Of a stretch of DNA of 64,000 nucleotides, positions 3,001 to 34,838 are shown in pieces. Origin of the DNA: Rhizophagus irregularis (lineage: Eukaryota; Glomeromycota; Glomeromycetes; Glomerales; Glomeraceae); NCBI RefSeq assembly GCF_026210795.1, contig NC_089433.1:5419001-5483000 (forward strand). The letters run 5' to 3'. Position 1 is the first letter of the stretch, and the number at the start of each line of letters is the position of its first letter. The translations under genes were made by a program, and so were the position numbers. The notes beneath the pieces are model-generated. The model was not told the origin of the DNA and made no database searches. It saw nothing but the letters and a program-made list of their open reading frames with translations.

Positions 3001-3520
3001 TAACATATATAAATAAATAATAATAAAAACTTAAAAATGATATTTTGTTAAACTTAATAAAAAAAAAAAATTTTTTTTATATTATGTATTATAAAAAAAA
3101 AAAAATAATGTACTTAAAACTGACAACATAAATTAAACAATAAATACAACGTAAATTTACCCAAGTTTTTTTTTTTTTTTGTTTCAAAAAAAAAATTTTT
3201 TTTTAAATTTATTTTTTCCTTTACTTCCTTTTTTTGCTCTTTTTTTTTAATTATATAAAAAAAAGAAAAATATTAAAAAAATATTCATCATTAGGAATCA
3301 TTAAAGCAATAAATAAACAGGCGCATAAACCTGCTTTATCATTCTTTTTGGTTCATAAAGCAAAAAAAAAAAAAAAACTTATATATATCATATATATTTT
3401 TTTTGTATATTTTAGTTGTATTCTCTTTTTTTTAAAAAAAAATAAAAAAAAAAATCTTTTTTGGACGCTTTTTATTTTTCAAAGGTTTTTATTTAAAATA
3501 GAATATTTTTTTCTTTTGTC
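1..3520. other. AT-rich upstream region without recognisable genes
   Basis: No convincing coding region is seen on either strand; short open frames are rich in K, F, N and I as expected from low-complexity AT DNA. The stretch holds many A/T runs. Around 640-690 the unit GCTTGTGAT-like recurs, and around 790-880 ACGTG/CACGT words are clustered. The last few hundred bases presumably contain the promoter and 5' UTR of the gene starting at 3521, but no specific element can be named. Confidence 0.6.
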
Positions 3521-4861
3521 ATGGCAGAGCCTAAATTCAATGAGAAAAATGGAGTCGAACTTTCACCTGAACTTAAATCATCATTAGATTTAATACAGGA
3601 CGCAACATTGGTTCATGTTCATCATAATAATCATAATGAAATATTATCATTCTCACAACAATTAAATATAGCCTCACCTCATATGCCACCGCATCATTAT
3701 TTGGTAGATTCGGAAGATGAGATTGATGAGAGTGATGATGATGATGACTTAGATTATGAATTTGTAAATGATGATGATTATGATGATAGTGATATTGATG
3801 ATAACGATTTTAATGAAAAAATTAAATTGGAAGTTTTTAATAGACCTCCTTCAAGATTAGGTAGACCTTTATCAAATCCATATAAAAGACATAATAAAAG
3901 GAATGGTCCTTCAGTTGATAGAATAAAAATGGATAATGCTTTCTTAAGAAATCAAAATAGTAAATTAAGTCAAGAACTTGAACAATGTAGATTAACAATT
4001 CAAGCCCTTAAAAATATTGTTACTCAAAAAGATATCGCTTTACAAAATTCTCGTTCTGATTATCAAAAAGCAATTTTACAGGTTAGAGTATTAGAAACTT
4101 TGATTTTAAGTAAACATTCTAAAGATGGTAGTATTATCGTAAGAAGTGGTGGTATTGGTGGTAATAATTTACCTACAGTAACTTCTCTTTTACAAGAGAA
4201 AGAAATGATTTCTCTTTTTCAAGAGAAAGATTTAATATTACAAGAGAAATGTTTGGATAAACCGATTGATTCTATTGATTCTATTGATTCATTAGAATCT
4301 GATTCTCTTGAAAATACCATTATCACCTCACAAATTCCTCAAACAACTCAACCACCATCTTTAGAAACTCCTTCAGATTTTATAGGATCTTCGGATGATG
4401 ATGATGAAGATTTAATTCCACCTCCTCTTCCACCTAAAAGAGCGAATCGACATATTAGAAGATGGTCAATGGATTTTGGACCAAATAATCGTTTAGGTCA
4501 AGATGAAGAAGGATCAATACAAATGAATATGATTAATAGTAATATAACTCAAGCAACATCATCTGATGATAATACGATAATATCATCATCAGGTACCACA
4601 CCATCATCATCAACGCTAACTCCTATCAATAATGATCTACAACGCAACCTTCCTCGTATATTGAGACGTCGAACGGGTGATATAATTCAATCATTATCGT
4701 CATGTCGTTCTTCATCAACTAAAAATGGGTACGATCATTCACCACCAAGTACTCCTTTTAGTGATGATTCGAATGAAACGATCATAAATGAAAAATCGAC
4801 AAAGAAGAGAAAATCCGCTCAACAAAATTTATCGAAACTTCGTAAAATCTTTTTACGTTAA
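3521..4861 (+). CDS. Acidic, coiled-coil, proline-rich protein of unknown function
   Basis: Single-exon gene of 446 aa; I do not recognise a named family. Residues 1-60 are His/Asn-containing. Residues 63-100 are a very acidic stretch dominated by Asp and Glu. Residues about 130-198 are a probable coiled coil with regular Leu/Ile spacing (NSKLSQELEQ onward). Residues 223-243 contain three LLQEKE/LFQEKD-type repeats. At 299-307 PPPLPPKR fits a class II SH3-binding motif (PxxPxR). The tail (425-446) is Lys/Arg-rich (STKKRKSAQQ) and could act as a nuclear localisation signal. The ATG is the first in frame after a long T-rich leader; an upstream overlapping frame (3234-3587) is low complexity and rejected. 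The composition suggests a scaffold or regulatory protein, possibly linked to SH3 signalling or the nucleus; that is inference. No intron is needed. Confidence 0.8.
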   Translation: MAEPKFNEKNGVELSPELKSSLDLIQDATLVHVHHNNHNEILSFSQQLNIASPHMPPHHYLVDSEDEIDESDDDDDLDYEFVNDDDYDDSDIDDNDFNEKIKLEVFNRPPSRLGRPLSNPYKRHNKRNGPSVDRIKMDNAFLRNQNSKLSQELEQCRLTIQALKNIVTQKDIALQNSRSDYQKAILQVRVLETLILSKHSKDGSIIVRSGGIGGNNLPTVTSLLQEKEMISLFQEKDLILQEKCLDKPIDSIDSIDSLESDSLENTIITSQIPQTTQPPSLETPSDFIGSSDDDDEDLIPPPLPPKRANRHIRRWSMDFGPNNRLGQDEEGSIQMNMINSNITQATSSDDNTIISSSGTTPSSSTLTPINNDLQRNLPRILRRRTGDIIQSLSSCRSSSTKNGYDHSPPSTPFSDDSNETIINEKSTKKRKSAQQNLSKLRKIFLR

Positions 4862-7800
4862 AATTTTCTTATTCGTTGGGGTGATTTTTAATCGAAATCG
4901 GGTCGGATTCTTTTATTACAAAATAGAGTCGTAAAAAAATCGTTTTTATTTTTTATTTTTTTTTTATATATTTTTTTTGTAAATAGTAATATATTTTTTT
5001 ATTAAAACACCTTTGTATACCTCTTTTTTGTAAGATTTTCTTTTCACCCTCGACATCATTTTGCACGCACGCACACTTTTTCACACAATTTTTACATTTT
5101 TTATACACAAAAAAAAAAAAAAAGAAATTAATAATTTTTAATAATAATTTTTTTTTTAGGAAATGATTATTACACAGTACTAATAATATATAATTTTCCC
5201 TCTCCCCCTCTCTTAAAAACAAATATAGATTTTTTTTTTATTATCATAAACAGATTTCAAAAAAAAAAAAACAATTTATCTTTTGTATAAATCATCAAAA
5301 CATTTCACACACAACAACACAACACACACAACCATACCCAAAAAACAACCACGATTTTTTAAATTTTTTTTTTGTGTATATATGTAGATATTTTATTATT
5401 CTATTGTTTTTTTTTTTATTTTTATTTTTATTTTATTTTTGTTTTTGTTTGTTTTTTTTTTTTACCCCCTCTTCCCTCTCCCCCCTCTCCTTTTTAGTTT
5501 AATTTTATGAAAATTTCATCATACAAGGAACATTAAGGATATGGTTAGCTAGAAAAAAAAATAATTATTTTTTTTCTTGGGATTAGAAATAATAATTATA
5601 TGGTAATTTAGGTAGGATAGATTAATGGGACAATTTTTTTTTTTTTCGGAATCGGATCTTATCGAGAAGGTTATAGTTAGTTAGTTATATGGAATCAAAG
5701 AGGTGTGCAAAGGAAATTGATTCGTTTATTTGGTTAAAAAACAGTTAAGATAGTAAGTTAGTAAGACGTAAGAAGTTAGTAGTTAGTAGTAAATAGTAGT
5801 AAATAGTAAGTAGTAACACACACATAACAATAAGAATATATTATATAATGTGAGTTGTAATAATGAAAAAAGGATAAATAATAATGAAGAAGAAAAAAGA
5901 AAAGAATTTTAATATAATTTTTTTTTTAAAAAAAAAAACTATTTTTATTTTCGGAAAATCCTATCTATTTTTTTTTTTCATTTCTAAATATCGATGTTTG
6001 TGTCGTTTGTGTCCTCGATTAAAATGACCTAAAAAAATGTGTGCTCGGAATGTATTGTTATATGTTATGTATATGTATGTCGGCATGTGTGTCGGATTAT
6101 TGTTTAATTACACACACATCATTACACTATATTACATACACTATTAAGTGATACACTCACAAAGTCCGTGAACTTTTTTTTTTTTATGAAAATAATAAAA
6201 AAAAAAGATAAGAAGTTATTTATTATATGATAAGATTTTTTTTATAATCCATTTATGGGTTGAATGCCCTTTTTTTAATATATGTATATATGTATATATG
6301 TATGAAAATATTGGGTGGGAATTTAGAATTTAATCAGGAATGTCTTTGGAATTTATGGAATTTTTTAAAGTTTTACTACATAATTACTATAATAACATAA
6401 CAAAAAAAAAAATATTATAACAAAGGATTTATTTCTTTGTAAAAAAAAAGATAAAAAAAAAATTTTTTAATGCAAGTAATAATAAATAAATCGTAAAAGG
6501 CTTATCATCCGTGAGATTATTATGGCGTGGGCATATTATGATGAATAATTTGGGCTTATGAAAAAAAAAAAATATAAATTTATACTTGTATTGTATATAA
6601 ACTTGTAACCATATTGTAAACATTTTTTTTAAAATTCCAAATTGAGAAGTTTAGAATTTTTTGTTTATCAAATTATATTTTTGAAATATTCCCATTCTAA
6701 TGGTTCCATTCTACTATTATTCTTTTACTATTCCTTTTTTTAATAACGTACAAAATTTTAAATAAGGTTTATATTTATGTCAATCAAATTTAACCAAATA
6801 CAATAACTTCATTGTGTTTTAAATAATTTGATTTTCAACAATAACACTTTTTTTTTGGTTGTTTTCAATGTTTCATTTTTTTATAAAAAAAGAATCTGAT
6901 AATTAATAATTTTTTTTTTTTTTTTTTTTTTGTGAAAAAGTTTCAGAAATTATTTGATTGGGTTTGATTGATGAATTTTCTTATTGTTCACAAAGAATAA
7001 ATATAAAGCAAACATGTAGTAAATATGGAGAATTTATTGGAGTAAAAAATATGGAGCAAATTATTGGAGTAAAAAAATATGGAGCAATTATTGGAGTAAA
7101 TATTCGAGTAAATATCTAGTAAATATTGAGAAAATATTTTTGAAGATACAATATATACAATAGATACTATACTGAGATACTGTAGATATATAGTAAATAG
7201 GGATGATCAAAAATGAAACTTATATGAAATACTTAAAAAAAATTCATTCGGGATAAAGAACGAGATAATGAACGAGATATTGAACGGGATTTATTATGAT
7301 ATAATTTATTGATGAGTAAAAATCGGGATATCATTTTTTTCCAAAAAAAAAAAATCTTCTGATTAGATAAAAAAGAATTTTTTTTTTTTTTTTTTGTAAC
7401 TGTGAAATGTAAATAAAATGTATATCTTTTTAAAAATAAAAGGTAATAACCATGTGATTATCGGTAATTTGCGTTATGACTAACATTGTAAATAATATTT
7501 ATTTTAATTTTTAGGTTTTCAAAGTTTACATTGAGAAATTTTTCAATTGTTTTTGAATAAAATCTTTTTATTCTATCATTCTTTCAATGAAAAAAAAAAA
7601 TTTAAGTTGAAAAATATTATGACAACGTTTTAAAAGTACAATTAATAATAAAATTAGTTAATGTTTGTAATAAAAAAATATTAATTTTTTTTTTTTTAAA
7701 AGAAACCTAAGTTAACGATATGTGTAATTAAGTGTAGTATAGTTATTCGTAGTAGTATGTGTAGTATTTGTATGTCACTGTAGTGTGTAGGGTTGATATG

Positions 7801-13416: not shown

Positions 13417-14193
13417 TTAATTATAAAATAATTATAGTAAAATAATATTATTATAAAGAATTTTTTAATAATTTAAAATTAATATATAGTATTATTTAAT
13501 AGTTAAATATAGTATTAAAGAAAAATTTTTACTTTTTATTAGTAAAATAAAAATTTAAAAATTTTTTTTTTTTAAGCAGTTATCATATTATTATTTGGAT
13601 AAAAAATGAAAAAAAATGAAAAATTAAAGTATAAAAAAAATGATAACAAAATTTTAAAAAAAAATAAATAGTAAAGTAATTGTTAAACATTTTTATACTT
13701 ATATAAAAAAAAAATTATATATATTTTCATTGAAAATAAAAGTATAATTAATTTAATAAGAAATTTTTAAATTATAAAAATAAATATTTCTTAATAATTT
13801 AAAATTAATATAGCCAAACCTTTATATTATACTTCCCAGCGAAATTAATTTAATTACGTCATTATACCTGACGTAATAAGCCGTAATAATTACGGTTTTA
13901 AATTTTAAAATGCCGATATGCCGTAATTAAATTAACCTGTCAAATTAATTACGGCAGTAAAATTTAAATTATATTAAAATAGGAAATAGATCAACTAATA
14001 AACACATGATTTAACATGAGTATATTAAATGAACGTAGTATATAATCATGTGTTATATTTCTTAAATTTTTTTTAAAATATTTCTTTGTCTTAAAAAATG
14101 CCAAATTTAAAATATTTTCTAACGCGTGTACCAATTAAACATTCTGATATAAAATAATACATTTTTTTATATATATTTTATACACTAATTATA

Positions 14194-16667
14194 ATGTCTA
14201 CTCAAGAAACAAATGGTGGAAGTTCAAGTGGCGTATTATTAAACACAAATAAAGAAAAAGGAAAACCAGGAAGAAAAAGAGGACCTGTTTGGATTCATTT
14301 TAATGATATTGGCACTAAAAAAGAAGGTCATATTGGTTGTAAATGCATGTATTGTGGCTGGACTCAAAACCGAGGAGAACCAGCCCAAATGCAAGCACAT
14401 TTAGCTTTATCCTGTTCAAAAGTTCCTTCTACAATTAAAATAGAATATTTACTTCTTATTAAACAAAATGCTGAAGAGCGAGTTACTAACTCTACTTCAA
14501 CTGTCTCAAAAAAAAGATGTGTTAATTTATCTCAAACAAGAATAGATAAATTTTATGAATCTGACCAGATTGATAGTACCAAACAAGTATTATGCGATAA
14601 AGCTGTTGCAAAATTCTTTGTTTGTTGTGGTGTGGCATTTCATTTAGTTTCTCATCCTTTTTTTATTGATATGGTTAAAAGTTTATGTAATGGATATGAG
14701 CCATCGTGTTCTACTACTTTATCCAATACACTTATGAACAACGAACTTACTAAAATAACTGTTGATCAGCAACTTACGTTAGATAAAGAATCAGATTTAA
14801 CATTAGGTAAAAAAATAAATTTTATTTTTAGATTTTTTAATTATTTAATAAATTTTGAATTTTTTAGGATTTGATGGCTGGACGAGCCCACGAGGTCAAT
14901 CATTATACGTTTTTATACTTATTACATGTGAACGAAAGGAAATTATACATAGTTTAAAAAATCTATCATCAGAATCTCATACAGCAAAATTTTTAGCTGA
15001 AAAAATTAATGAAGTAATTACAAATATTGGGCCTGAAAAATTTTCTGCAGTTGTTTCTGATCATGCTGCTGCTTGTGCATCTGCTAAACGAATCATTGCT
15101 GATACACATAAACATATTATTCCAATTAGATGTATTGCGCATCACATTAATCTCATTACAACTGATATTTGTAAAACTTCATTTGCCAAAGAGGTTATTG
15201 CGAAGTGTACAAAGTTAGTAAAATTTTTTAAAACATCACATCAAGCTGGTAAAAAGCTTAAAATGAGTATAATTGATGATTCAGTTAAAGGTGGAAATCT
15301 CAAAACTTATGTCAAAACTAGATGGACAACAGCTTGGGATTGTACGAATTCTATTTTACGTCTTGAAAATCAGTTAAAAAATGTAAGTTTATTAATTATT
15401 AATTATAAAATGAATTAAAACGTGAAATTTATTTTATTTTATTTATTTATTAGTTATTAAATGAATGCCCAGAAATATTGAATAATGAAATTAAAAGTTT
15501 ATTGCGAAGTAGATCATTTTTTAATGATGTTGATGCCGTTAATACTTTATTAGGCCCAGTCAAATCAGCAGTAAAGGCTCTTGAATTCAAATCAACTATG
15601 CTTGCTGATTGTTTTGTTGAATTAATCAAGTTATCACAAAGGATTAATTTCCTTCCACCAATATCAGATCAAAATTTTAAATCTACCTGTATTGAATTAT
15701 TTAATAAAAGATGGAAACAATTCGATTTTGATCTTTATATTTTAAGTTATATGCTTCATCCATACTACCGAGGTAAATTGTGAATTTTTTTTTGAATTAT
15801 TTATTTTTACACTAATCTTAATTAAATTATTATATTTATACTTTAGGTAAAGGTTTACATCCAATGGTCTTTCGTGATGTTTGTCTTAATGCAATGAAAT
15901 TGCTAAAAAATATGGGTGGTGGTGAAAATTCTTGTAGCGAATTAGTTGCTCAAATTCGCGCATTTACACAATATGAAAAACCTTATGATTTAGAGTATGT
16001 ATTAGGAATAGATAATGTTTTTTTATGGTGGCGATTATGCAATCCAGTACGTCCTGAAGAACATTATATTCAACAACTTGCTATGAAGATTTTATCAATT
16101 ACTCCACATAATGTAGGATGTGAACGTGTTTTCTCCATAATTGGTTGGATGGCTAATAAAAGGAGAACACGGTAAGTTAATATTTAATATTTAATATTAC
16201 TATATTAAAAAAAGTATATTATGCCTTTAATTTAGTTTTAATGTATTTAATTTAGATTAAATATTGAAAAACTTGAATCAATGGCGAAATTACATACGTA
16301 CTATATAACAAATGCAAAGTCTGAGCTCAAATTTGCATATAACACACTTTCCGAAGATCAATTTCAAAATGAAATTCAAGAAACATTATCTGATCCTTCT
16401 TTTTTTGATGATGATGATGATAATAGTGATTATGATGATGAAGATGAGGATTATGATCAAAATGAGGATGAGGGTGATGATACTGAGGCAGCTAATAATA
16501 ATAATTTGGAAATTTCACGATGGGTTAATATTATGGATAAAGAATTGCAAGAACTACTTCAAACAGAAGTTAAAGTAGTAATTGATATTTCTCCTCCACC
16601 ACCACTGGTAGATCACGGTTCTCAAGAATTTAATATGGAAGAAGTGTTAGATAGAATTCTCACTTAA
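14194..16667 (+). CDS. hAT-family transposase, 727 aa, five exons
   Basis: Cut-and-paste transposase acting on the ends of the surrounding element. Exons threaded by GT-AG signals with frame kept throughout: 14194-14806, 14868-15382, 15454-15772, 15847-16171, 16256-16667 (introns 61-84 bp). Residues 45-80 form a BED zinc finger (CMYC at 51-54, then H69 and C74). The middle is a DUF659/RNase H-like core: D207 in LGFDGWTS and D269 in VVSDHAAA fit the first two catalytic acids, with RCIAHHINL and TRWTTAWDC nearby. The C-terminal hAT dimerisation region contains PHNVGCERVFS with E575, the expected third acid. A highly acidic tail (DDDDDNSDYDD region) follows. No stop or frameshift interrupts the model, so the protein is probably functional. 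Some acids assigned by family knowledge could be off by a few residues. Confidence 0.9.
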
Positions 16668-16959: not shown

Positions 16960-17575
16960 CTTTAAAAAAAACAATTTTAAAACCGATTTGTTTTAAAAAA
17001 AAATGATATTTCGGTTTTCTTAAACCGATTTTTTTTTATTTTTAAAAATTTAAAATCATTTATTTATTTTTTATTTATTAATTATTTTTTTAAAAACAAT
17101 ATTTCGGTTTTTTAAACCGATTTCTTTTTATTTTTTTAATTTTTTTTTTTTAAAAAAAATAATATTTCGGTTTTCTTAAACCGATTTTTTTTCTTTTTTA
17201 AAATCATCATTTATTTATTTTTTATTTATTAATTATTTTTTTAAAAAACAATATTTCGGTTTTTTTAAACCGATTTTTTTTTATTTTTTTAATTTTTTTT
17301 TAAAAAAAACGATATTTCGGTTTTCTTAAACCAATTTTTTTTATTTTTTTTTATTTTTTTTCTTTAAAAAAATAGATATTTCGGACCAATTTAAAAAAAC
17401 TGATTTTTTTCTTTTTTAAAATTTAAAATTATTTATTTATTTTTTATTTATCAATTATTTTTAAAAAAAACAATATTTCGGTTTTCTTAAACCGATTTTT
17501 TTTCATTTTTTAAAATATATTTTTTAAAAAAAAACATTTCGGTTTCTTAACCGATTTTTTTTTCTTTTGCTTTTT
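16960..17575. repeat. Array of eight TCGGTTT..AAACCGA hairpins in the hAT tail
   Basis: Eight imperfect tandem units of about 60-90 bp each contain ATTTCGGTTTTCTTAAACCG or a variant, followed by a T-rich tract and an A-rich spacer. The core folds as a 7 bp stem with a 4-base loop (TCTT). Unit 6 is the most damaged. The order of A run, hairpin and long T tract resembles the 3' half of the hairpin introns further downstream and at 25.6-28.1 kb, but no exon-like segments are visible here. Confidence 0.7.
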
Positions 17576-17599
17576 AATTATTTTTTTTTATTACAATTA

Positions 17600-19510: not shown

Positions 19511-20285
19511 TGTAGGAAGAATTAGAAACCCACCTTAATATTTACGCTCTTCAAGAAGGTTTTTCTTACAAAAAAAATAAGGCTTGAATATTACATGAGT
19601 CTAGTGGTACAGCCATCCCGATTTTTTGAGGAGATTAATAATATTTGCAAAAGAATTTTTTAACATTACATATACTTTCAACAGTTCAAAACCAAATGAA
19701 ACAAATCTTTTTTTTTGATGCTTCAAGAATATATAGAACAGGTATGGAGTAATTGATTATTTAATGACATGGTATTAAGATTAGGGTGTGGGATTAGGGT
19801 TAAGATTAGGGTGTGAGATTTAGTTAGGGTTAGGATTAGGGTGTGGAATTAGGGTTAGGGTGTGGATTAGGGTTAGGATTAGGACTTGGAATTAGGGTTA
19901 GGCTTAGCATGTTTATTGTTTCTAACTTTATTTATTTCTTTTTTTTTAATTTTTGATTGATGGTTCAACTTGCAAAGATGGATTCCGGGAATATGATTAT
20001 AAAATTAAACTAATTCTACTCAAAAATTTGATTGAAAATGTGCTATTAGATTCTATTGTAGAAATTTGGCAAATTAAGCCTGAATTATTACCAACACATT
20101 CACAGTTCATCATTTATTTATACCAGCGTGAACGTCCGCCAAAACTGTATCAAAGTGAAGGAGAACCACAAAAAATAATTAAAGAAAACAAAGAAAATCA
20201 AAGTGTTAATATAATGATAGCACTCTGAAAAAATTACAAAACTGTAGAGGTTTGTCATAATTTACGAAATTGCAAGGTTCTTAGC
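19511..20285 (+). pseudogene. Remnants of a FAR1/MULE transposase (N- and C-terminal pieces)
   Basis: At 19511-19584 the frame reads EELETHLNIYALQEGFSYKK after a stop, which resembles the start of a FAR1-type DNA-binding domain. At 19953-20228 an open frame ends in RERPPKLYQSEGEPQK and KENKENQSVN, like the basic RGRPPK tail of such transposases. After a one-base shift it continues CHNLRNCKVLSDKN and stops near 20297, resembling a zinc-knuckle end. The DDE core between these pieces is missing and replaced by telomere-like repeats. Family assignment is from recognition and is moderate. Confidence 0.5.
19779..19905 (+). repeat. Interstitial telomere-like (TTAGGG) repeats
   Basis: At least ten TTAGGG units appear in about 125 bp, many as GATTAGGG or TTAGGGTG variants, all in the same orientation. 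The array lies inside the MULE-like element rather than at a chromosome end. Confidence 0.85.
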
Positions 20286-21652: not shown

Positions 21653-22270
21653 TTTTTTAAAGTTGAAAATAAAAGTAATTTTAAAAATCTTTTATATAAT
21701 TTGTATGTTCCACAATTGCTCCATCAAAAATCGTCTGATAAATTGTGGACAGTTAATTCCGAGCTCAGCTAATTCTGAACTCTGAAGTGATTGTAACATG
21801 AATTAGGTAACAATAACAAATAATAATCATTTATGCAAAATATTTATTCTTGATCCCGACAATAATGACGTGATCGGTTTTAAAAATAGGCTGACTCCGA
21901 TAACAAAACATTGAACTGTAAATACATATCTGATATGAAAAATGTTCATATCCGCCGATCTTTGGAATTGGCCAAAATTAATAAAAATATATTAGTTCGG
22001 TATAATAAAATTATTTGTTTTATCGAATATTTGAAATAACGACTTCGTTATATCGAGTTCTGACTGCACATTGCTATATTGTAAATTTTGATACACGATT
22101 TTCCTGCTATACCTTTATTTTTATTTCACAAGCGATATCACAATAATGAATAATACATTTGTTTTGTAATCTATTGTGCCCTGCCCACCCACTGTGTTCA
22201 CGCCCTGAAAAAATAGTAGCTAACATAACCGCCACTTAATAAAAAACAGACTAACTCTGCTTGACATTAA
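21653..22270. other. Intergenic region with an old transposon end
   Basis: No gene seen. The segment near 22040-22072 (ATATCGAGTTCTGACTGCA) resembles the right end of the pogo element at 36650-39129, so this is probably a degraded pogo-type terminus. The part next to 21652 should contain the promoter of the membrane-protein gene. Confidence 0.4.
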
Positions 22271-22964
22271 TTACATTCGTGTTTTGCGAAAGGAAGGAAG
22301 AATTGTAGGTGTTACAGGCCTAGAAACAGCAGGTTCTTCTATGGATGGTGTCACTGATCTTGATGGCACCTCCTTGTCAACTTTTGATGATTTCTTAGAT
22401 ATGCTACGAGGGGGAACTGATTGCTCAGTTTCAGAACTCAACCATTCAGGTGTAGAGATCGAAGATACTCTTGAAGACAACTTGGCCGTTGAAGGTGAAC
22501 CCTGACCTAATATTTTCATTCGAATGGAAGTTCTAGCAAATGAAAAAAAAATTGTGTTAATTTTGGGTACCACTCACTTATTTTCCCAGAAACAATTACC
22601 TGGTTCTGGCTTCGTTGAGAACTCCTCATATAACTTCTCCCCAACTTTCTCTTGTTCCCAGTTCTTTCTCTATATTTTTTTCATTGTCTAATAAAATAAT
22701 AAATAAATTAACCAGACAAGTCTTCGTAGGACGCAAGCAGTTGCAAGCAATCGGCCAGTACTACTTACGTAAAAAGCTTTCATGAGACTTAAGAATTTTT
22801 ATAACAATCTTCGCCAGTGAAGTAATTTATATTTTCTTGTTTGTTTATTTTCCAGCAATATTATCCCAAAAGAAATATTTCTTCTTACTCAGAGCATGAT
22901 ACTCAGCATTTCTTTGTTTTCATTCATCAATGAGAATGCAAAGCTGGGCGTCAGAGAACTCCAT
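22271..22964 (-). pseudogene. Decayed gene with Myb/SANT-like N-terminal region
   Basis: Reading the minus strand from 22964, MEFSDAQLCILIDE is followed by an in-frame TGA, then KQRNAEYHALSKKKYFFW and DNIAG. This resembles the start of SANT/Myb-like DNA-binding proteins expanded in this type of fungus. Further down, out of frame, GEKLYEEFSTKPEP and then a Ser/Pro-rich tail (STPEWLSSETEQS, RSVTPSIEEP) end at 22271. Frames change between the pieces and no splice set repairs them, so I call a pseudogene. The domain name rests on recognition of a few motifs. Confidence 0.45.
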
Positions 22965-23689
22965 AGTTGACTACATGGTGAGAAGCTTTTCTAGGAGCGC
23001 TTATTTTATGGAAAAAATATCGAGTGATGATCAATTATAACGGTGGCTTAGCTATTTTATTTAACTAGCCCCCCAAAAAAGCACTGGTCGGCCGGCATTA
23101 TGCGGAATTATGTACTGTCACGTGAGCAGTGCGTGGTGACAAATAATGCACCCCTTTTTTGTGTGCCAGGTTCATAGCTTAGCAAGCCACGCACCACAAA
23201 ACTTATTTTGGCCAGAATTAAAATGAATTAAAATTAAAGTATATAGTCCACGCGGTACCACAAAACTTATTTTGGCCAGAATTAAAGGGAATTAAAATTA
23301 AAGTGTATATATCGTATCAATAATGCAAAATTTTAAGAATATAATTAAACGAATTATTAAAAATACTAAACTTTTAAGAAATTAAATGAATAATAAGTAT
23401 CTTTTTTAATAAATTTAAAGTGTATATATATATAATAAATATGGACAAAGTAAAAATATTGCAAATTTATTTAATAAAGCACAAGTTAAAATTAAAAATA
23501 TAATTTAATTCAACTGATTTCTTAGAATATTTTTGCTTAAATTGTGTTCTTTTTTACCAGTTTTCTTTTTTTTCTGACTTGGAATTATTTATGAATCTAA
23601 ATTTTCTTTTCTGTCAGCTTGCTTATTAGTGCCACCTGATTTATTTTTTTACACCGCTTAACAGACTCTATCTGAACACGAATTATTGC

Positions 23690-25101
23690 ACCACTCTTAA
23701 TGCGTGTTAGATCTACATTGTGGTTAATATCATAAAGGAAGGAACACAAGTGAGGAATTGATTTTGATTTGATGTATGGTATCGTTCAGCAAATTTGTCT
23801 AATGCAGTACGAAACTGTGGACCACAATTTTCATAATCTACTTTAATTTCTTCCAAGAAATCGCCCAAAGTAGATGTGTTGATTTCATTCTCTTTTATTT
23901 TATTATTTTCATTTAATTCTCTCAGAAATTAGTTGTCAGTTATAGAATTCAATTGATAGCTGCAGTTCAGAATTGTCAATTGTTTATCATTTTCGTTATG
24001 CGATTCTATCTGCAGAGTTTGAACTTGTGAGAAAGGACCTGCATGTAGTGAAGCATAAAAAGAACCATTTTTTGCAATGTAGCTTAAAATAATAATAAAT
24101 TATGTGAGTGATAATTATAATAAATATCAAATTTAATGGAATCTGTTTGCCAAGTGCGATATAGAAATAGATCATATGATCATTAAGAGTTAATGATGGT
24201 AGAAAATTAAAATTTGAAATGTGAAATTTTACAGAAACAGCTTGCACGGTGTGCCTATCATCCTAACATGACAGCTACAAGTTCCAATAGCACTGTTAAA
24301 CAACATAAAAACAACCCATTTTTTTTGTACTTGGAACTAAATATTCATTTTTGAAAGTTGTTGGTTAAATGGAATTACTATTCACTTTTTCCCAATCTGG
24401 ACAAAAGAACCTTTTTGTGATCGTATGATCCAGGTGTTTATATGCAATTCTGAGCAGTTTAAATTTATAAAAATGGTCTATGTTATCTGTAACAAAATGA
24501 AAGACTTGAACTGGATTAAAAGCTTGAGTTCTAGAAAAAATGATATTCTTAAGTATGCTAAAGCTACATTCAATATAATTATTTGTATTGTTTCCACGTA
24601 TCAGTAGCATCAAACGAAAAGATAAAGCCCATAATTGGCGCTGTTTCCATAAAAGATCAAAGTGTTTTTGTAATTGAGAATATAAGTGAAAAAAATTATG
24701 TTTAAAGTCTTGATAATGGTTATCCATCTCTGGCTCTGTTAATACGTAAAGAATTTTTTTCATCATCTTTATAATAGGTATTTGATCATTTTTATTTATA
24801 TGATGTTTTGAATCGTACAACCATCTTCAAAATACCTGGAGTATATGGAAAGTACATAAAAGACGTATTCCCGTGGCCAACAGAGCTTTAGAGCGTTTCT
24901 TTCTGCGCTTGAATCATCTGTAAAAAATACTATAAGACCAACTTGAGAACTACATTTATAGAAGGCATATGAAGGTAAAATCATCTTTAGCAAATTTAGC
25001 TAATCGTAAAAAAGAACAATAATTAGAAATTTGTAATTACCGAGAAAAAAATCATAGGAAAATTACCGCTTTTTCCAATATTATTTCTGATTTATCTGAT
25101 G
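23690..25101 (-). pseudogene. MULE transposase, C-terminal half (decayed)
   Basis: Read on the minus strand from the insertion point: LITSDKSEIILEKA, then AKDDFTF-region decay, then MLKMILPSYAFYKC, FTDDSSAERNALKLCWP, and a frameshift to the part beginning near YDSKHHINKNDQIPI. This continues through WKQRQLWALSFRLMLLIRG, NNTNNYIECSFSILKNI and RTQAFNPVQVFHFVTDN (24365-24820). After further stops, AVSVKFHISNFNFLPSL and NDHMIYFYIAL lead, across a probable intron, to YIAKNGSFYASLHAGPF. The TDDSSAERNAL block fits the MULE DDE core, and the later part the SWIM-adjacent region. Several frameshifts and stops make it non-functional. Confidence 0.75.
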
Positions 25102-25630
25102 TAACACTGGTCAAAATCAAAACTTTCGACCGTTAAGAGCTTTCGGTATAATTTTTGCTGATTGGTCATATGATTCATCACATTTTTTGACCAATGGCAA
25201 AAATCAGTAAAATCAATCACAAATCAACTAATACTGATTGTTAAACGAAAACTCATTCAGTCTTTTGGTGAAAAATCAACTTATACCGATTGTTATACAA
25301 AAAATTGCTCTTTTAAGATCATTCAGTAAAATTATACTGATTGGTCATATAAATCAACACAATTTTGCCAAATTTGCCAAACGGTAAAAATCTGGCAATA
25401 ATTCGGCAAATCAGTTGATAAATGACTGAAAAAATCAGATGATCCAGATCGATATTTTACAGGTCTTTTTAAAATAAACTTTTTTAAACTTTTTAAACTT
25501 TTCGCCTCTCTCTTTCATTCGTAAATGTACACATTAAATTCGGTAACTTTTTATTAAATCAAAAAAGTTTCGAAACTTTCTTTAAAAAAACATTTTTTAC
25601 ATTAAAAAACGTTTTTTTTTATACTTTTAG

Positions 25631-27172
25631 TGAAGAAAATCGGTTCCAGCGTGGATACCGATATTACAGGTAAAGTTTTGAAAAATTTTGAAACTTTCTT
25701 TTAAAAAAAAAATGTTTTTAGCTAAAAACGTTTCTTTTTTATATTTTTTGCAGAAAATCGGTTCCGATGTGGATACCGTTTTCCTAAGTAAAGTTTCGAA
25801 AAAAATTTTTAAAACTTTCTTTAATAAAACATTTTAATAAAACGTTTTTTTATTTTTGTATAGGAAATCGGCTCCAGCGTGGACGCCGATATTCCAGTTA
25901 AGTTTCAAAACTAAATGGTTTAAAACTTCTTTAAAACGTTTTTTAATAAAAAAAACATTTTTTTTTTATTTTTTTTATATAGGAATTCAGCTCCAGCGTG
26001 GATGCCAATATTCCAGTTAAGTTTCGAAACTAAAGTTTCAAAACTTTAATAAAACGTTTTTTAATAAAAAAAATGTTTTTTTTTTATTTTTTTTATATAG
26101 GAATTAAGCTCCAATGTAGACGCTGATATTCCAGTTAAGTTTTGAAACTAAAGTTTCGAAATTTTAATAAAACGTTTTTTAATAAAAAACGTTTTTTTTT
26201 ATTAATTTTTGTAGAAAATCGGTTCTGGCGTGGATACCGATATTCCAGGTAAGTTTCAAAACAAATGTTTTGAAACTTCTTTAAAAACATTTTTTTTATA
26301 TTAAAAAACATTATTTTTTTATTTTATTGTATAGGAATTTGGCTCCAGCGTGGACGCCGATATTTCAGATAAGTTTCAAACCATTTTTGAAACTTCTTTA
26401 AAAAAAAAACGTTTTTTAACGTTTTTTTTTATACTTAATTGTAAAGCTATCAGTTCCAGTGTGGATACTGAACCCCAAAGATAAGTTTTGAAAAATTTTG
26501 AAACTATAATAATAAACGTTAAAAATTAACATTTTTTTTTTATTTTTTGTAGGGATATCAGTTCCGGTGTGGATACCAAAATCCCAAAGGTAAGTTTCGA
26601 AAAAAAATTTTAAAACTCTTTTTAATAAAACGTTTTTAATAAAACATTTTTTTTTATGTTTGTATAGGAAATCGGCTCCTACTTGAATACCAAATTCCAA
26701 AGGTAAGTTTCAAAACAAAGTTTTGAAACTTTAAAACATTTTTTAATATTAAAAACGTTTTTTTTTTACTTTTGTATAGGAATTCGGCTTCAGCGTGGAT
26801 GCCGATATTCCAGTTAAGTTTCATTTTCAAAACTTCTTTGAAAAAAACGTTTTTTAACGTTTTTTTTTTAATATTATTGTAGAGTTACCGTAAAGTTTCA
26901 AATTTTTAAAACTTTACGAAACTTAATAAAAAAAACGTTTAAAGTAACGTTTTTTTATTATTTTTTATTATTTTTTTTTGTAGAGAATTGGCTCTGATTT
27001 GGATACCAATTCTACAAGTAAAGTTTCGAAGTTTTTTTTTCGAAACTTAATAAAAAACGTTTATTTTAAACGTTTTTTTTATTTTTTTGTAGGAAATCGG
27101 CTTCAATATGGACGCTAAAATCTCTTCGGTCAGGTTTCAGGATGAGTTCAACATGGAATTTCGAAGGTAGAA
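25631..27172 (+). other. Mini-exon / hairpin-intron array, type 1 (GSSVDADIP repeats)
   Basis: About fourteen exon-like segments of 33-39 bp alternate with introns of about 65-90 bp. Clear ones: 25631-25669, 25754-25787, 25864-25896, 25983-26015, 26101-26133, 26215-26248, 26335-26368, 26553-26589, 26668-26702, 26780-26812, 26984-27017, 27093-27128. Each begins after T-rich..(G)TAG and ends at GTAAGT, GTAAAG or GTTAAG. The consensus frame reads E-I-G-S-S-V-D-A/T-D-I-P and is the only frame open in all well-kept units. Introns start with palindromic AGTTTCGAAACT words and carry an AAACGTTTTTT..AAAAAACGTTT hairpin before the T tract. Units near 26369 and 26481 have damaged donors (ATAAG). I could not thread one continuous frame through all units because 33- and 34-base exons alternate. 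Confidence 0.6.
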
Positions 27173-27293
27173 CTTCAAAATATTTCATTAATTTATCTAA
27201 TAAACATTACTAACATTCCTTTGTATTTAGAAAATTTTTTTTTTTTTATTTGAACGAAACGTTTGCTAACGTTTTCGTTCTTTTTTTTTGTAG

Positions 27294-28091
27294 ATTCAAG
27301 ACGCCCTCAAAGTATAATAGGGGTTTAGGGCATGGAATGGTTGATGGTAAGTTTTGAAGTTGGTTTAATTTTGAAACTTTAAAAGAAATGATTTACTAAT
27401 CATTTCTTTCTTCTTTTTGTAGGCTTTCACTTCAGGCTGATGGATCGGGTAAGTTTCGAACTATTTTGAAACTTTTCAAAATTTTTTTTTTATAAAAGAA
27501 TCGGTTTGCTAACCGTTTCTTCTTTTTTTTTGTAGATTTCCCCCTTCGACTTTTTATTGGATGGGTAAGTTTTTCGAAACTTCATTTTTTATTATTATTA
27601 AAGAAACGAACTAACCGTTTCTTTTTTTTTGTAGGTTTCCATTAACGAATTGGAGGTAAGTTTCGAGTATCGAAACTTTAACTTTTTTTATCGAAGAAAC
27701 ATTAAACTAATTGTTTCTTCTTTTTTTTTGTAGGTTTCCCACCCTTCGGACTTTATTGGATGGACAGGTAAGTTTCGAATTTTTTCAAAACTTTATTTTT
27801 TTTATTGAAGAAACGTTAAACTAATTGTTTCTTCTTTTTTTTTGTAGATTTTCTTCTTCGGACTTTATTGGATGGGTGGATAAGTTTCGAATTTTTCGAA
27901 ACTTTATTTTTAATTATTATTAAAGAAACGAACTAACCGTTTCTTTACTTTTTTTTTGTAGGTTTCCCCTTCAGATTTTATTAGATCGGGTAAGTTTCTT
28001 TTGAAACTTTAACTTTTTTTATTTAAAAAATAGGTTACTAACCATTTTCTCTTTTTTTTTGTAGGTTTTCTACGGATTTTTATCAGGTTAG
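27294..28091 (+). other. Mini-exon / hairpin-intron array, type 2
   Basis: Eight exon-like segments follow the type 1 array: 27294-27346, 27423-27448, 27536-27564, 27635-27655, 27734-27767, 27848-27875, 27962-27989 and 28065-28086. Several share a TTTCCCCCTTCGGACTTTAT-like core and a GGATGG end. Introns of 70-87 bp start GTAAGTTT(C)GAA and end in a 9-11 bp hairpin, a T tract and GTAG. The intron ending at 27422 has a perfect 11 bp stem (AAGAAATGATT, loop TACT, AATCATTTCTT; 27383-27408). CTAAC or CTAAT overlaps the loop in seven of the eight hairpins. A transition intron at about 27167-27293 joins the two arrays. The product is unknown; exon lengths do not keep one frame. Confidence 0.6.
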
Positions 28092-28372
28092 GTGAGGATG
28101 ATGGGTGGATAATGGATGGTGGATGGTGTATATAGATGATAGATAGCTATATATTAATTTAATATGTAATTTTTAATACATATGGGCCGATCCTTGGAAT
28201 CTAATTTTTTACACAAAAATAATTTTATTAAAGCAAATATAAATTATCATTTATATAAGAATAATAAATTTATACTAGGTAATGCAAAAAAAACTAATTA
28301 ATTATATAATTTTTAATTTTTTTTTAATATATGATATCATTAAAATTTAAAAGATCAAATATAACTCTCATG

Positions 28373-28930
28373 ACAAAATCATTGATAATTCTTCGTAGAA
28401 ATAAGCTATACAAATAAATTTACATTCATTTGAAAGAGAAAATCGAGATCTATCTAATGAATCTAAAATCAAGTGAATTGAATCACTAGTTGTTCAGTAA
28501 TCACGTTCAGTATATTTATTGAATTTTATCTAAATTTGATCATTAATTACTTCACATGTAGTGATTCAATTTGAATGATCTTTGCTCCCTAAGGTGATGC
28601 CAACTTTTATCTTTAAAATAAATTTAAAATAATTCGTTTAATATATGTAGAATCATCAATTATATTATTAATATAAAATTTTATAAGTTTGATAAAATCT
28701 GATATAAAAAAATTTATTAAATACCTGTAGATGCAAGCTACACGAATGAAATTATATTCATTTGAAAGAGAAAATTGAGGTCTATCTAATAAGCCTAAAA
28801 TCGAATGAATTGAATCACTGGATTGTGAATAATTACGTCTAATATATTTATTTTTAATTTTTAAATTTGATTTGACTTTGATCGTTAATTACGCCTCATC
28901 CAGTGATCCAATTTTCCTGATCTTTGATTC
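28373..28930. repeat. Two diverged ~330 bp direct repeat units in the CACTG element
   Basis: CATTCATTTGAAAGAGAAAA..GAGNTCTATCTAATNA with a following GAATTGAATCACT and a later GATC(A/G)TTAATTAC..TGATTCAATTT/TGATCCAATTTT occur in both 28373-28600 and 28700-28930. The copies are about 332 bp apart and clearly diverged. No coding content is seen between 28140 and 29800. Confidence 0.65.
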
Positions 28931-29946
28931 TTACGATAGAGCAAATTCTCAGCTTTCAAATGAATGTAAAATGATGACGTTAGCATATCTCCAGGAATAA
29001 TAATGCACGATTTTGTCACCTGCATAAAGTCCGATCTGAAAATTTTATTTCTTACCAAAAAATGCTTTCATAAGAGAATCCCAAATTCTTTTACTTTATT
29101 TAAAAGATTTTATTTGCCATTTAAGGATTTTAGTAGAATAAATCTAATAAAATAATTTTAAAAGATAAAAAACAAATATATAATTAGTTATTTTGAAAAA
29201 AAAAGAATATCTTATTATTCATTTTACAACTATTTTACATCATAATTATTTTTTATTTGCATGTATTTTTTACAAAGAAAAAACAATAAATTAAAGCTAA
29301 AAATTATGAAAAAATATGTCTTATCTATGTATATAAAATATTAAGTTTTTTCTTTTACTTACCACTTAAAAATAACTGCTATATTTGCTTATAAACTTTT
29401 TTGTCATATTTAATAAAAGTGAATAGAAAAATGATGGAAAAGTGATGGGCAGTGATGGGAAAAAAGAAGTGGTTATTACCGTTATTTTTGAATATTGATT
29501 AAAAAAATTTTTTTATTTTTTATTAAATCTGAGTTACGTAAATATGTAACACATATTTAATTTAGATTTGTGTAATGTTAATCTTACTAAAATATTAAAT
29601 TTTTATAAAAATCTTAATTTAGACTAATTCCAAAAATCGGCACATATGAAAATGAATTAATAAAATTTAATTAATAAATTATTATAAAATTAAATCAGTA
29701 ATCAGTTAAATGTACAAAAATCGGTAATAAATTATTAGGTTTATTAACAATCGTCAATTTGATTTTACCGATTTGTTGCCAATTTTTACTGATCAATTTG
29801 TTGACAAATGGCAGGCGTTATGGTGCAAATCATCTATATAATTAGTTGCCGATTTTTTGGTACTGATCGGCTAAGGTAAGACTGAATTTCGTCCAACATT
29901 CAGCAATTTAAAATTTTGCCAAAATGAACTATTCTGACCAGTGTAA

Positions 29947-30695
29947 TTAACATCCAAGTGGCAGCACACCTGCTGCATAACTTGTATATAAAAGTGTAAT
30001 TGAGGTTCAAACGATGCAGATGCATCAACATAACAAATTTCTCCAACTTGCAGAATTTTTTCATGAATGCGGCACATTAAACTGGATACAATGCATAAGA
30101 TGAACGCTTTTTCAGTTTATATATCATATTCCTGTATAATCGCTTTACCATTACCCAAATTGTTATAATGATCAATTACTTCTACTAAGTGTTCAAACAT
30201 TTTCTCACCATTACAACTGCCAAGCATATTATTATGGTATTTATGGAAAAGTCTAACAATATAACCATAGTCTGACTTGATAGCTCGATCTGCAAGCATT
30301 TCAAGCAACTCCTGATTACTTTCTGCAGTAGTGTGAAACCTATCTTCATAGAAATATATTGTCAAAGCAGACGAATGCCCATCTTCAAATAACTCTAAAA
30401 ACCTTTCATGTACCTCTTCCTTAACATGCTAAAAACTTAATGATTCTGCCAAATTTATTACATGATTGTGCGTAAATCTAATATTGATTTCCAGCAGATT
30501 GCTATGCGACTCAATATGCCAATTTTCTAGCTGAATTTTAATACTTGCATTGCAGTGAACATTTCTTATTCAAGTTGACTGCTGAAACTTTATTTCACGA
30601 TTACCTTATTTTTTTTTAACATCATTTCCATGTATACAATGTCGTTTTAAAAGCACCTTTTTTCCTTTTACTCTGTATCCCTTTGTTTGAGACAT
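29947..30695 (-). pseudogene. MULE transposase, N-terminal half (decayed)
   Basis: Read on the minus strand from the ATG at 30693-30695: MSQTKGYRVKGKKV, a stop, IQLENWHIESHSNLLEIN, NHVINLAESLSF, a stop, HVKEEVHERFLELFEDGH. An open frame (30117-30365) then has EDRFHTTAESNQELLEML, DYGYIVRLFHKYHNN and EHLVEVIDHYNNLGNGKAI. After another stop and shift come LMCRIHEKI.. and GEICYVDASASFEP (29871-30077), followed by TSYAAGVLPLG ending at the insertion point. GEICYVDASASFEP fits the first DDE region of MULE transposases. It belongs to the same gene as 23690-25101. Confidence 0.75.
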
Positions 30696-31472
30696 CGTGA
30701 TTTTAGAATGACTGATATTAATAAATGCTTTTAGTTCAAATTGTGGGATCGAAAAATTCTCAAAAGTTTGATAAGATAGTAGTTAATTAAACTTTTTAAT
30801 TAAGTATGAGTAACCTGATGAAAGAACTAATTTCAAAAGATCGGGTAATGAACTCTAAACTAAAATCTGTAAGAATTAAGAAATAACAATTATGACAAGT
30901 TTAGCAACAATGGTGACTTTGACAAAATAAAATATTTTAACAAATCGGAATAGTAAAATTTTTGCAATATATTAATATATTAATATTTAATGAAAATAAT
31001 TTACAATAGTACAAATTTGATAAATTAAAATATAAAATATAGTTATATAATACTAATAAAACTTTGTAATTTGTACTTTAACCTCGTCTATACTATTATC
31101 GTTCTCTATAATTTTAGACAGCAAAAAAAAAACAAAACTATTTGGTTTTATTTAACTAAATAAAACGTTAAATAAAAATATTTATTATAGTCTATGTGGT
31201 TTTATATTTCGCTTCAAAAAATGGTAAATAAGATGGGAAGAAAAAGAGATGGTTAACACGACACAAATAAAATCAATAAAATCTGTGTACAATGCGAAAT
31301 TAGGTCACGTAAATAAGTAAATTATTAGAAGAGTGGTGGCGCGTGACGTATGGTGCAGCTGTGCTACACATTTTTGCCATGAACCTGGCACACAAAAAAG
31401 GGATGCAAAATATATTATTTATATTTTATTTAATTTTTTATTAACTATTAATTCTAAAAATGCGATTTTACT

Positions 31473-33291: not shown

Positions 33292-34838
33292 CAGTCAACT
33301 CCCTCTATAGTCACTCCCGTTATAGTCACATTCTACTATATAGTCACACCAGTTGAATGTTCAAAACACTTTATTATTAAAATCTATCCTATATAGTCAC
33401 AATCTATCTATAGTCACTATCACACCTATCCTCAAAAAACTTATATTAAAAAGAACCGTTTATAATCACAGTTATATAAAGAATATATTAAATAACTTGG
33501 CATCTAATAATCGTACAAAGATGTATCATAGCTTGTTAGAATCGTCTCACTAAGACGAATCGAATGGTAGTAGTTTTATCCTTTTCCTTTGCTAGTGTTT
33601 ACGGCCAGACCACCCATTGCCTCTTATGAGACTAATCTCGGGTCTGTGTCCTATCATCTTCAATGGGCAACCATTATACCGAGTACTTAATTCCTCAGGT
33701 AACAGCACCACTATAGAAGACATCCCCCATCGGGCCATTATAGGCTGATCTGAAGCTAGGTACACGCCGCCTACTCATCCTATACCCATTGCATGATACT
33801 GATACTCAATTTATTTAACGACCTTTAGAGAGTGTTTTATCCTTTTCCGATTACTGGCTGACGAGTTATTCAACAAAATGTTAAACATCGGCATTATAAT
33901 ATTTCTTGATTTACGTTTACTGCACCATTTAACATTTTGCTAGATTTCTCGGTACCTAGTGATTGTAAAAAGACGATTTATAGCTCGTTGGAATCGTCTC
34001 ATCGAGACGAATCGAATGGTGGTAAGCTCATCTCTCTGTGATCGATATTGACGGAGTTATTACTTAAAAACCATTTAATATTTTTTAATTTCGGAAATTG
34101 ATCTAGTGATTGGATTTCGATGTATATTATACCATTAGATTCGTCTCATCAAGACGAATCAAATGGTAGTACGATCGTCTTTCTAGGATCAATATTGGCA
34201 GAGTTATTACACAAAAACCATTAATATTTTTTTTAATTTCGGAAATTAATTTAGTGATTGGATTTCGACATATTTTATACCACTAGAACCGTCTCATCAA
34301 GACGAATCGAATGGCGGTAAGATCATCTCTCTACGATTAATATTGGCGAAGTTACGATACAATAAAGTTTTAAGTATAATTCTGGCTAAAATTATGTTAA
34401 TTTTTGGCCAGAATTATGATATACAAATATAAGAAATTTTTTATATAGTCACATCTCTTTATAATCACCAAATATTTTGAAGGTTATCTGATGAAAGTCC
34501 TCCGTGACAGTAGTAGTGGTGAGGGGTTTATAATAGTAGCCATTACAGTATCATGCAACGGATTAAAGGACAAGTAGGGTGGTGTTCAGCAGATTCGAAG
34601 GCCTTCGGGTCCCTGGGATAAGTCCTTGCGTCTCGGTTGTGGTGTTGAATTGTCCTTGTTAAAAGGCGGCGGGAATGGTTACATCATGGCTTAGTGAGGA
34701 TGATGCATTGAACGACCTACCTCTATAACCTTCAGTAGAGGATGCGGAAAGTAGTGGCCACTAAACGTACAATACACTTGTAAAATAATCACCAAATATG
34801 GACTGTCCCAAATGTGTGACTATAAAGAGAGTTGACTG
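33292..34838. mobile_element. 1.5 kb TA-flanked element with AGTCAACTC ends
   Basis: The left end CAGTCAACTCCCTCTATAGT and the right end ACTATAAAGAGAGTTGACTG are inverted repeats, with TA on both sides (33290-33291, 34839-34840); TATAGTCAC words recur inside the left end. This fits a Tc1/mariner/pogo-type non-autonomous element. The interior carries four copies of the recurrent palindrome and two more GC-rich blocks (about 33596-33830 and 34490-34770) whose base composition stands out from the surroundings. Those blocks may be fragments of a retroelement captured in opposite orientations; I could not identify them. No intact frame is present. Confidence 0.65.
33988..34340. repeat. Tandem ~145 bp units each starting with the recurrent palindrome
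   Basis: Three units begin at about 33988, 34132 and 34280. Each has a palindromic core (CGTCTCATC/AAGACGAATC type) inside CCATT..AATGG, then a GATC.TCT.T.TA(G/C)GAT..ATATTGNCGNAGTTA tail and AATTTCGGAAATTGAT..GTGAT. A further palindrome at 33535-33568 lies upstream. Confidence 0.7.

Follow-up and report, generated by a model that had tools for sequence, protein, structure and literature searches.

In the parts of the literature considered here, Plavaka transposons, which belong to the CACTA/CMC/EnSpm group, are described as prevalent in several strains of Rhizophagus irregularis (PMC11075540), and expression of CMC-EnSpm or Plavaka elements has been reported for this fungus (PMC11075540, PMC8647823); words beginning with 'splic' or 'tandem' are absent from the main text of PMC11075540. 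The soybean element Tgm-Express1 is, according to the portions of PMC1947982 consulted, a CACTA element whose exons and introns are used by the spliceosome. Many sequence-similar introns are found among fungal introner-like elements and symmetrical stwintrons, where terminal inverted repeats span the intron (parts of PMC8469720 and PMC4457414). SP7-like effectors, finally, which occur in R. irregularis as several paralogues with repetitive peptides, alter splicing in the plant; their genes are described as encoding a signal peptide and 6-11 repeats, the first of which has a conserved intron in front of it (PMC11333574, in the parts examined).

Here we describe an array of mini-exons in a window of 64,000 nucleotides of R. 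irregularis DNA, by which we mean the whole stretch that was analysed. This array is probably cargo of a non-autonomous CACTA-type (CMC/EnSpm/Plavaka) cut-and-paste DNA transposon, a family in which spliceable exon-intron units were amplified in tandem. The element resembles the CACTA/CMC/EnSpm and Plavaka elements of R. irregularis in having a terminal inverted repeat (TIR) starting with CACTG, a 3-bp target site duplication and a relative with Transposase_21, but differs in carrying tens of mini-exons with hairpin introns. While Tgm-Express1 holds five unrelated host gene fragments, it contains tandem arrays of similar short exons (compared with PMC1947982 as far as consulted). Its introns and those of the stwintron paper are alike in their inverted-repeat structure (PMC4457414, in part); however, the array introns mostly form two local hairpins each, and exon and intron were amplified jointly inside a transposon, unlike what the consulted parts of PMC8469720 and PMC4457414 describe. 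In SP7-like genes, as presented in the same parts of PMC11333574, the intron stands before the first repeat. An intron may precede the first array unit too, but every repeat of the array is an exon of its own, separated from the next by an intron and housed in a transposon; those parts of PMC11333574 contain no description of mini-exon arrays. Literature searches on mini-exon arrays in transposons, R. irregularis CACTA elements, Plavaka and splicing, and introner-like elements of Glomeromycotina returned nothing describing such arrays among the matches listed, and the main text of the introner survey PMC9860276, in the portion available, has no words beginning with Rhizophagus or Glomero.

Direct reading and a recount of the plus strand gave 21 exon-like segments of 21-74 nt between 25631 and about 28131 and, near 26885, a remnant of 7 nt. 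This bears out an earlier note on the same DNA, which had claimed about 22 mini-exons alternating with mini-introns, and likewise its distinction of two main exon families; the intervening mini-introns carry splice signals. The features of the element are as follows.

25105-25505, plus strand: left terminal and subterminal region, beginning with CACTGGTC, with TAA (target duplication) before it; 25104-25505 has 42 matches in the genome, and a pattern search gave 64 left ends
25520-25560, plus strand: putative end of a leader exon and first donor (GTAACT at about 25542), from reading the window copy and L047
25631-27017, plus strand: type-1 mini-exon array of 12 units with exons of 33-39 nt, EIGSSVDADIP type, plus the 7-nt remnant
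25670-28064, plus strand: mini-introns, in most of those folded with hairpin A at the 5' splice site and hairpin B around the branch-point region (RNAfold, 19 of 20 introns)
27093-27166, plus strand: 74-nt exon with a type-1 start and a unique tail
27294-27346, plus strand: 53-nt linker exon with stops in two of three frames
27423-27989, plus strand: type-2 mini-exon array of 6 units of 21-34 nt, TTTCCCCCTTCGGACTTTATTGGATGG type, with a CTAAC/CTAAT branch-point-like motif and TTTGTAG
28065-28131, plus strand: last exon, one frame of which reads GFLRIFIRLGEDDGWIMDGGWC, a tail similar to that of protein models P0001 and P0004
28179-29648, strand unassigned: nested insertion of 1.47 kb, bounded by inverted ends CATATGKGCCGAT; in 16 of 20 loci, 28178 continues into 29649 within a few bases
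29649-29943, plus strand: right subterminal region and right TIR ending with GACCAGTG, followed by TAA (target duplication); at least 40 genome matches

The first segment starts at either 25631 or 25636. Internal donors in the window array begin with GT in 17 of 20 cases (GTAAGT, GTAAAG, GTTAAG and one GTAGAA), the other three, at 26368, 26480 and 27879, being GATAAG; its acceptors end in AG, with one irregular segment near 26445 (AAAG) whose start is uncertain by about 2 bases. Eighteen of the 20 introns measure 70-87 nt, one 127 nt and one, which holds the 7-nt remnant, 171 nt, and exon lengths modulo 3 are mixed across the array. In length, the array introns are like those of the host. The tandem repeats finder TRF reported a 118-bp tandem array at 25568-26822 and a 114-bp tandem array at 27673-27969. 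Judged at the level of sequence, exon and intron have been multiplied together as tandem units, types 1 and 2 in the window and two further types, 3 and 4, in the copy L026; the duplication of exon-intron pairs as units that the earlier note had proposed is upheld to that extent.

The window element spans 25105-29943, with the TIR CACTGGTC and the 3-bp duplication TAA on both sides, and its TIRs begin in the CACTA/CACTG style of CACTA transposons (CACTGGTC...GACCAGTG). We searched the genome (32 contigs, 146,748,485 bases) for further copies. When 22001-31000 was used as BLAST query, 16 of 20 loci joined window position 28178 to 29649 within a few bases and continued to about 29943, and in five of the 20 the match began at about 25104, the rest having a different left part or an end beyond the fetched stretch. 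The nested insertion passed over at these loci has the ends CATATGGGCCGAT and ATCGGCACATATG and contains internal inverted repeats as well. A set of 24 oriented sequences, comprising the 20 BLAST loci, three more and the window copy, was examined for ends and duplications. Both ends were found in 17 of them, 13 of which have identical 3-bp flanks, the target duplication of CACTA elements, compared with a mean of 1.2 and a maximum of 7 in 5000 shuffles of flanks among copies; in this count the right end of L011 is doubtful, and L012 and L047 deviate in the final base of the TIR. The flanks of L013, L021 and L046 do not match. At about 5950-5975 of L011, the right end of the copy passes into TTAGGG repeats. 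The genome contains 64 occurrences of a 33-base left-end pattern, allowing up to three mismatches, and none of its reversed form; the array has at least 91 genome matches and the right end at least 40, spread over many contigs. The element thus has defined ends and target duplications, is dispersed over many chromosomes and has a transposase-bearing relative with the same left end.

This relative is represented by L052 and L053, which have the left end in common with the window element (269 bp, 92%). The L052 protein matches Transposase_21 (PF02992), the type of transposase expected of a CACTA element, with 36.3 bits against a cut-off of 28.6, the relationship being followed from the left end only: L052/L053 is one of the 13 among 42 left-end matches that cover just the first 270 or so bases, and beyond that end its DNA shows no similarity to the array except for one 32-base match. 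The transposase of this relative lies on the opposite strand and, as read by eye, a second, repetitive gene on the same strand, an arrangement known from CACTA elements. At least 18 of the 64 left ends have a match to the transposase C-terminus in antisense orientation no more than 3 kb away, involving 17 distinct transposase matches, in a count that used 27 of 123 such matches. No transposase was noticed in the window copy, which we accordingly read as a non-autonomous member. A transposase in L045 was considered as autonomous partner and rejected, since it sits between ends of its own, TAGCATAGYGAACAT, in a disrupted exon and is therefore read as part of a nested element; Pfam gave no transposase hit on the five pieces scanned. 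That separate transposon occupies about 1000-6200 of L045, with a minus-strand transposase-like gene between the TAGCATAGYGAACAT ends, inside a type-1 exon. The open frames of L046 look LINE-like by eye, as does a fragment in L014/L015.

The copies also vary in their array content. In type-B elements, such as L012, another leader stands in place of the type-1 array, and in L026 the two further exon families precede type 2; in the reverse-complemented L026 copy, the third and fourth mini-exon families lie at 2700-4900, with the 5' splice site in the loop of an exon-intron hairpin. Protein models P0016-P0018 show, by eye, type-1, type-3-like, type-4 and type-2 peptides in that order. To compare splice signals across copies, units were collected by a profile search at E 1e-3 or better, a threshold that favours clear units, in the window copy and 23 fetched loci; this yielded 126 unique units of type 1, from 11 sequences, and 169 of type 2, from all 24. 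The acceptor A is present in 122 of 123 type-1 and 167 of 168 type-2 units and the acceptor G in 116 of 123 and 161 of 169, respectively. In type 2, the branch-point-like CTAA is conserved to at least 96% per base, and TTTGTAG is kept. Donors are weaker than acceptors: an aligned GT is found in 85 of 119 type-1 and 123 of 162 type-2 units, and the remaining 34 and 39 units without it count against the spliceable reading. Taken as sequence, the splice-like signals of the array units nevertheless exceed chance, and we infer that the host would splice the array introns. It is possible that exon skipping in such an array generates many isoforms.

The intron families follow a common plan: one hairpin lies at the 5' splice site and another around the branch-point region, and a T-run and AG complete it. 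Hairpin A includes the 5' splice site itself, GT being followed by AAGTTTCGAA paired with TTCGAAACTT; in L026, GTAAGT lies in the loop of a stem formed with the exon end. Hairpin B contains the branch-point-like CTAAC/TACTAAC. RNAfold returned a mean z of -2.29 for 19 window introns (the 171-nt intron was left out), compared with -0.06 for 17 host introns (Mann-Whitney p 1.7e-4), which were taken from an EF-G-like and an NSUN-like gene, named by eye, and delimited by reading frame, with one donor set one base early. For three of the 19 window introns z is positive, and the mean z of six type-3 introns of L026, folded with the exon arm omitted, is -0.84. An RNAalifold run on a MAFFT alignment of 42 type-2 introns found no consensus pair, the arms appearing out of register, and Rfam at gathering threshold had no match over the window.

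Across the genome, the pattern GTAAGTTTCGAA-N(0-28)-TTCGAAACTT has 256 matches and its reversed control none, while hairpin A without the GT requirement occurs 369 times; GT would thus stand on one side of up to 69% of these hairpins, compared with an estimated expectation of about 10% from base composition. Among the 100 matches listed there are 68 different strings and 57 different loops of 7 nt or more; in 35 of these 57 loops, two or more further Watson-Crick pairs prolong the stem inwards (mean of 11.5 and maximum of 23 in shuffles), although the loops come partly from related copies and are not independent events. Of these 100 matches, 11 fall within members of the TIR family, 9 close to other matches of the array, as scored with 18 of the at least 91, and 80 elsewhere. 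CpG states in hairpin A of 208 units match weakly (85 complementary compared with 70.7 expected, permutation p 0.02), and doubly mismatched CA/CA pairs are not avoided (17 compared with 19.3 expected), so that selection at the RNA level in present copies is not demonstrated by these states.

Stable secondary structure or inverted repeats, as present in the array introns, have been described for fungal introner-like elements (PMC8469720, in part), which raises the question whether the introns themselves are mobile, self-multiplying elements of this kind, here caught in tandem. The 80 of 100 listed GT-hairpins outside the listed TIR-family elements and array matches would fit such an origin, but they may lie in elements with other ends, and in the window exon and intron were duplicated together, as expected of unit duplication and not of intron insertion; we regard introner-like mobility as unlikely. 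CACTA elements are well known for repetitive subterminal motifs. It is thus conceivable that the arrays are satellite-like subterminal repeats whose palindromes are DNA motifs bound by the transposase, their intron look being incidental, and the density of short inverted repeats in the arrays and the nearly neutral CpG states of the hairpins agree with this. The frequency of GT before the hairpin (256 matches compared with 369 hairpins), the order of branch-point-like motif, T-run and TAG conserved in 169 type-2 units, and the gene models that join exons at array borders all speak against it, rendering this explanation very improbable.

Protein databases do contain models of the array. A threaded, partly idealised type-1 peptide matched 19 proteins at E up to 1, of which ten reached 1e-3; of the 19, 16 are from R. 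irregularis, one is from R. diaphanus and two are unnamed. P0017 as query had 47 matches at E up to 0.01, itself included, all from R. irregularis and four with OCT59_ names, which we take to denote models of the RNA-read-refined annotation of this fungus. For strain DAOM197198, that refinement used Illumina and Nanopore RNA reads, and the annotation was curated to remove transposons, according to the available part of PMC10234402. In a translated search, P0046 was not placed on its own contig, and its sole match was on C4. The models, from several R. irregularis strains, thread the arrays and could indicate a protein-coding family, either a hydrophilic repeat effector or an accessory protein encoded by the transposon, which would yield isoforms by exon skipping and for which the transposon is merely the vehicle. 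Yet among these models all three frames of one and the same exon are in use. The consensus exons of five sub-families are free of stops in three frames, also across self-junctions, but between 13 and 65% of shuffles per sub-family give a single consensus that is equally open; the window exons, which are homologous and hence not independent, contain 18 stops over three frames compared with 30.3 in shuffles, with none of 200 shuffles as low. When all 21 segments are joined, the three GATAAG borders included, each frame has 6-8 stops, and the longest open stretch, 145 codons in one frame, runs through a GATAAG border; the leader ATG of the window is missing in L047, as seen on reading both copies.

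Divergence between copies was also compared, with the window copy set against L009, L010, L011 and L023, where some aligned units may not be true counterparts. Outside CpG, exons diverged faster than introns (0.110 compared with 0.049), but diversifying selection was rejected as the cause: C and G sites outside CpG are equally diverged in exons and introns (0.104/0.107 and 0.120/0.121), and the excess is confined to A and T sites (0.087/0.033 and 0.051/0.031, exon/intron), as expected if the other copy retained C or G. Transitions account for 130 of the 148 changes in exons. In each part, divergence is highest at CpG sites (0.23-0.34), which is what methylation of transposons would lead one to expect. 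Three of the comparisons together gave 12 exon indels, 11 of which have a length not divisible by three and shift the frame. The equal C/G divergence, the transitions and the frame-shifting indels make the copies look neutral, and a protein-coding family is, on this evidence, quite unlikely. Nor did a kinship with SP7-like effectors, to which the earlier note had pointed without claiming sequence identity, find support, given the transposon context, the lack of visible coding constraint between copies and the absence of an SP7-named match among the 19 and 47 hits, as judged by match names and the published description. The array is probably not a plant-directed effector gene.

As transposon cargo, the arrays would have grown in progenitor elements through unequal exchange or slippage during replication, amplification of the units being favoured by their palindromes, and then spread passively with borrowed transposase, present copies mostly decaying. 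The cargo is most likely passive in these copies. Upon transcription of the element or of a gene around it, the host spliceosome could remove the array introns, and the insertion would then act as a string of optional mini-exons, stop-free by consensus in all three frames, so that an element inserted in a gene could add optional exons. Three models are of interest in this respect. P0054 joins a transposase C-terminus (57% identical to that of L052 over 82 residues) to array peptides, P0052 joins an array to the C-terminus of another protein, and P0034 joins one to a protein family present at many places; over just 36 residues, the N-terminus of P0034 is similar to the second gene of L053 (E 5e-06, single comparison). 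These chimeric models may be annotation fusions or real exonisation. A wider proposal, doubtful but conceivable, is that mini-introns with hairpin donors form a class spread over the whole genome that multiplies jointly with frame-agnostic mini-exons in CACTA transposons, that each insertion delivers a cassette of optional exons, open in every frame, to host transcription units, and that the chimeric models are its products. A transposon that multiplies whole exon-intron units would, provided that the arrays are spliced, be a natural source of exon shuffling and perhaps the origin of some orphan repeat genes in annotations of mycorrhizal fungi; the hairpins at 5' splice sites, which number in the hundreds, offer a testable case for the joint proliferation of introns and small exons. 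The arrays are also a warning that spliced 'hypothetical proteins' of the R. irregularis genome can be transposon cargo.

Other repeats and open frames occur elsewhere in the window. On the plus strand, open frames at 14158-16667 resemble a hAT-type transposase by eye, the first of them without a Pfam hit. TRF reported another tandem array, of palindromic units (ATTTCGGTTTTCTTAAACCGAT) with periods of 61, 150 and 222, at 16986-17590, interstitial TTAGGG-type (telomere-like) repeats at 19775-19907, and a tandem repeat of 148 bp in 2.5 copies at 33991-34354.
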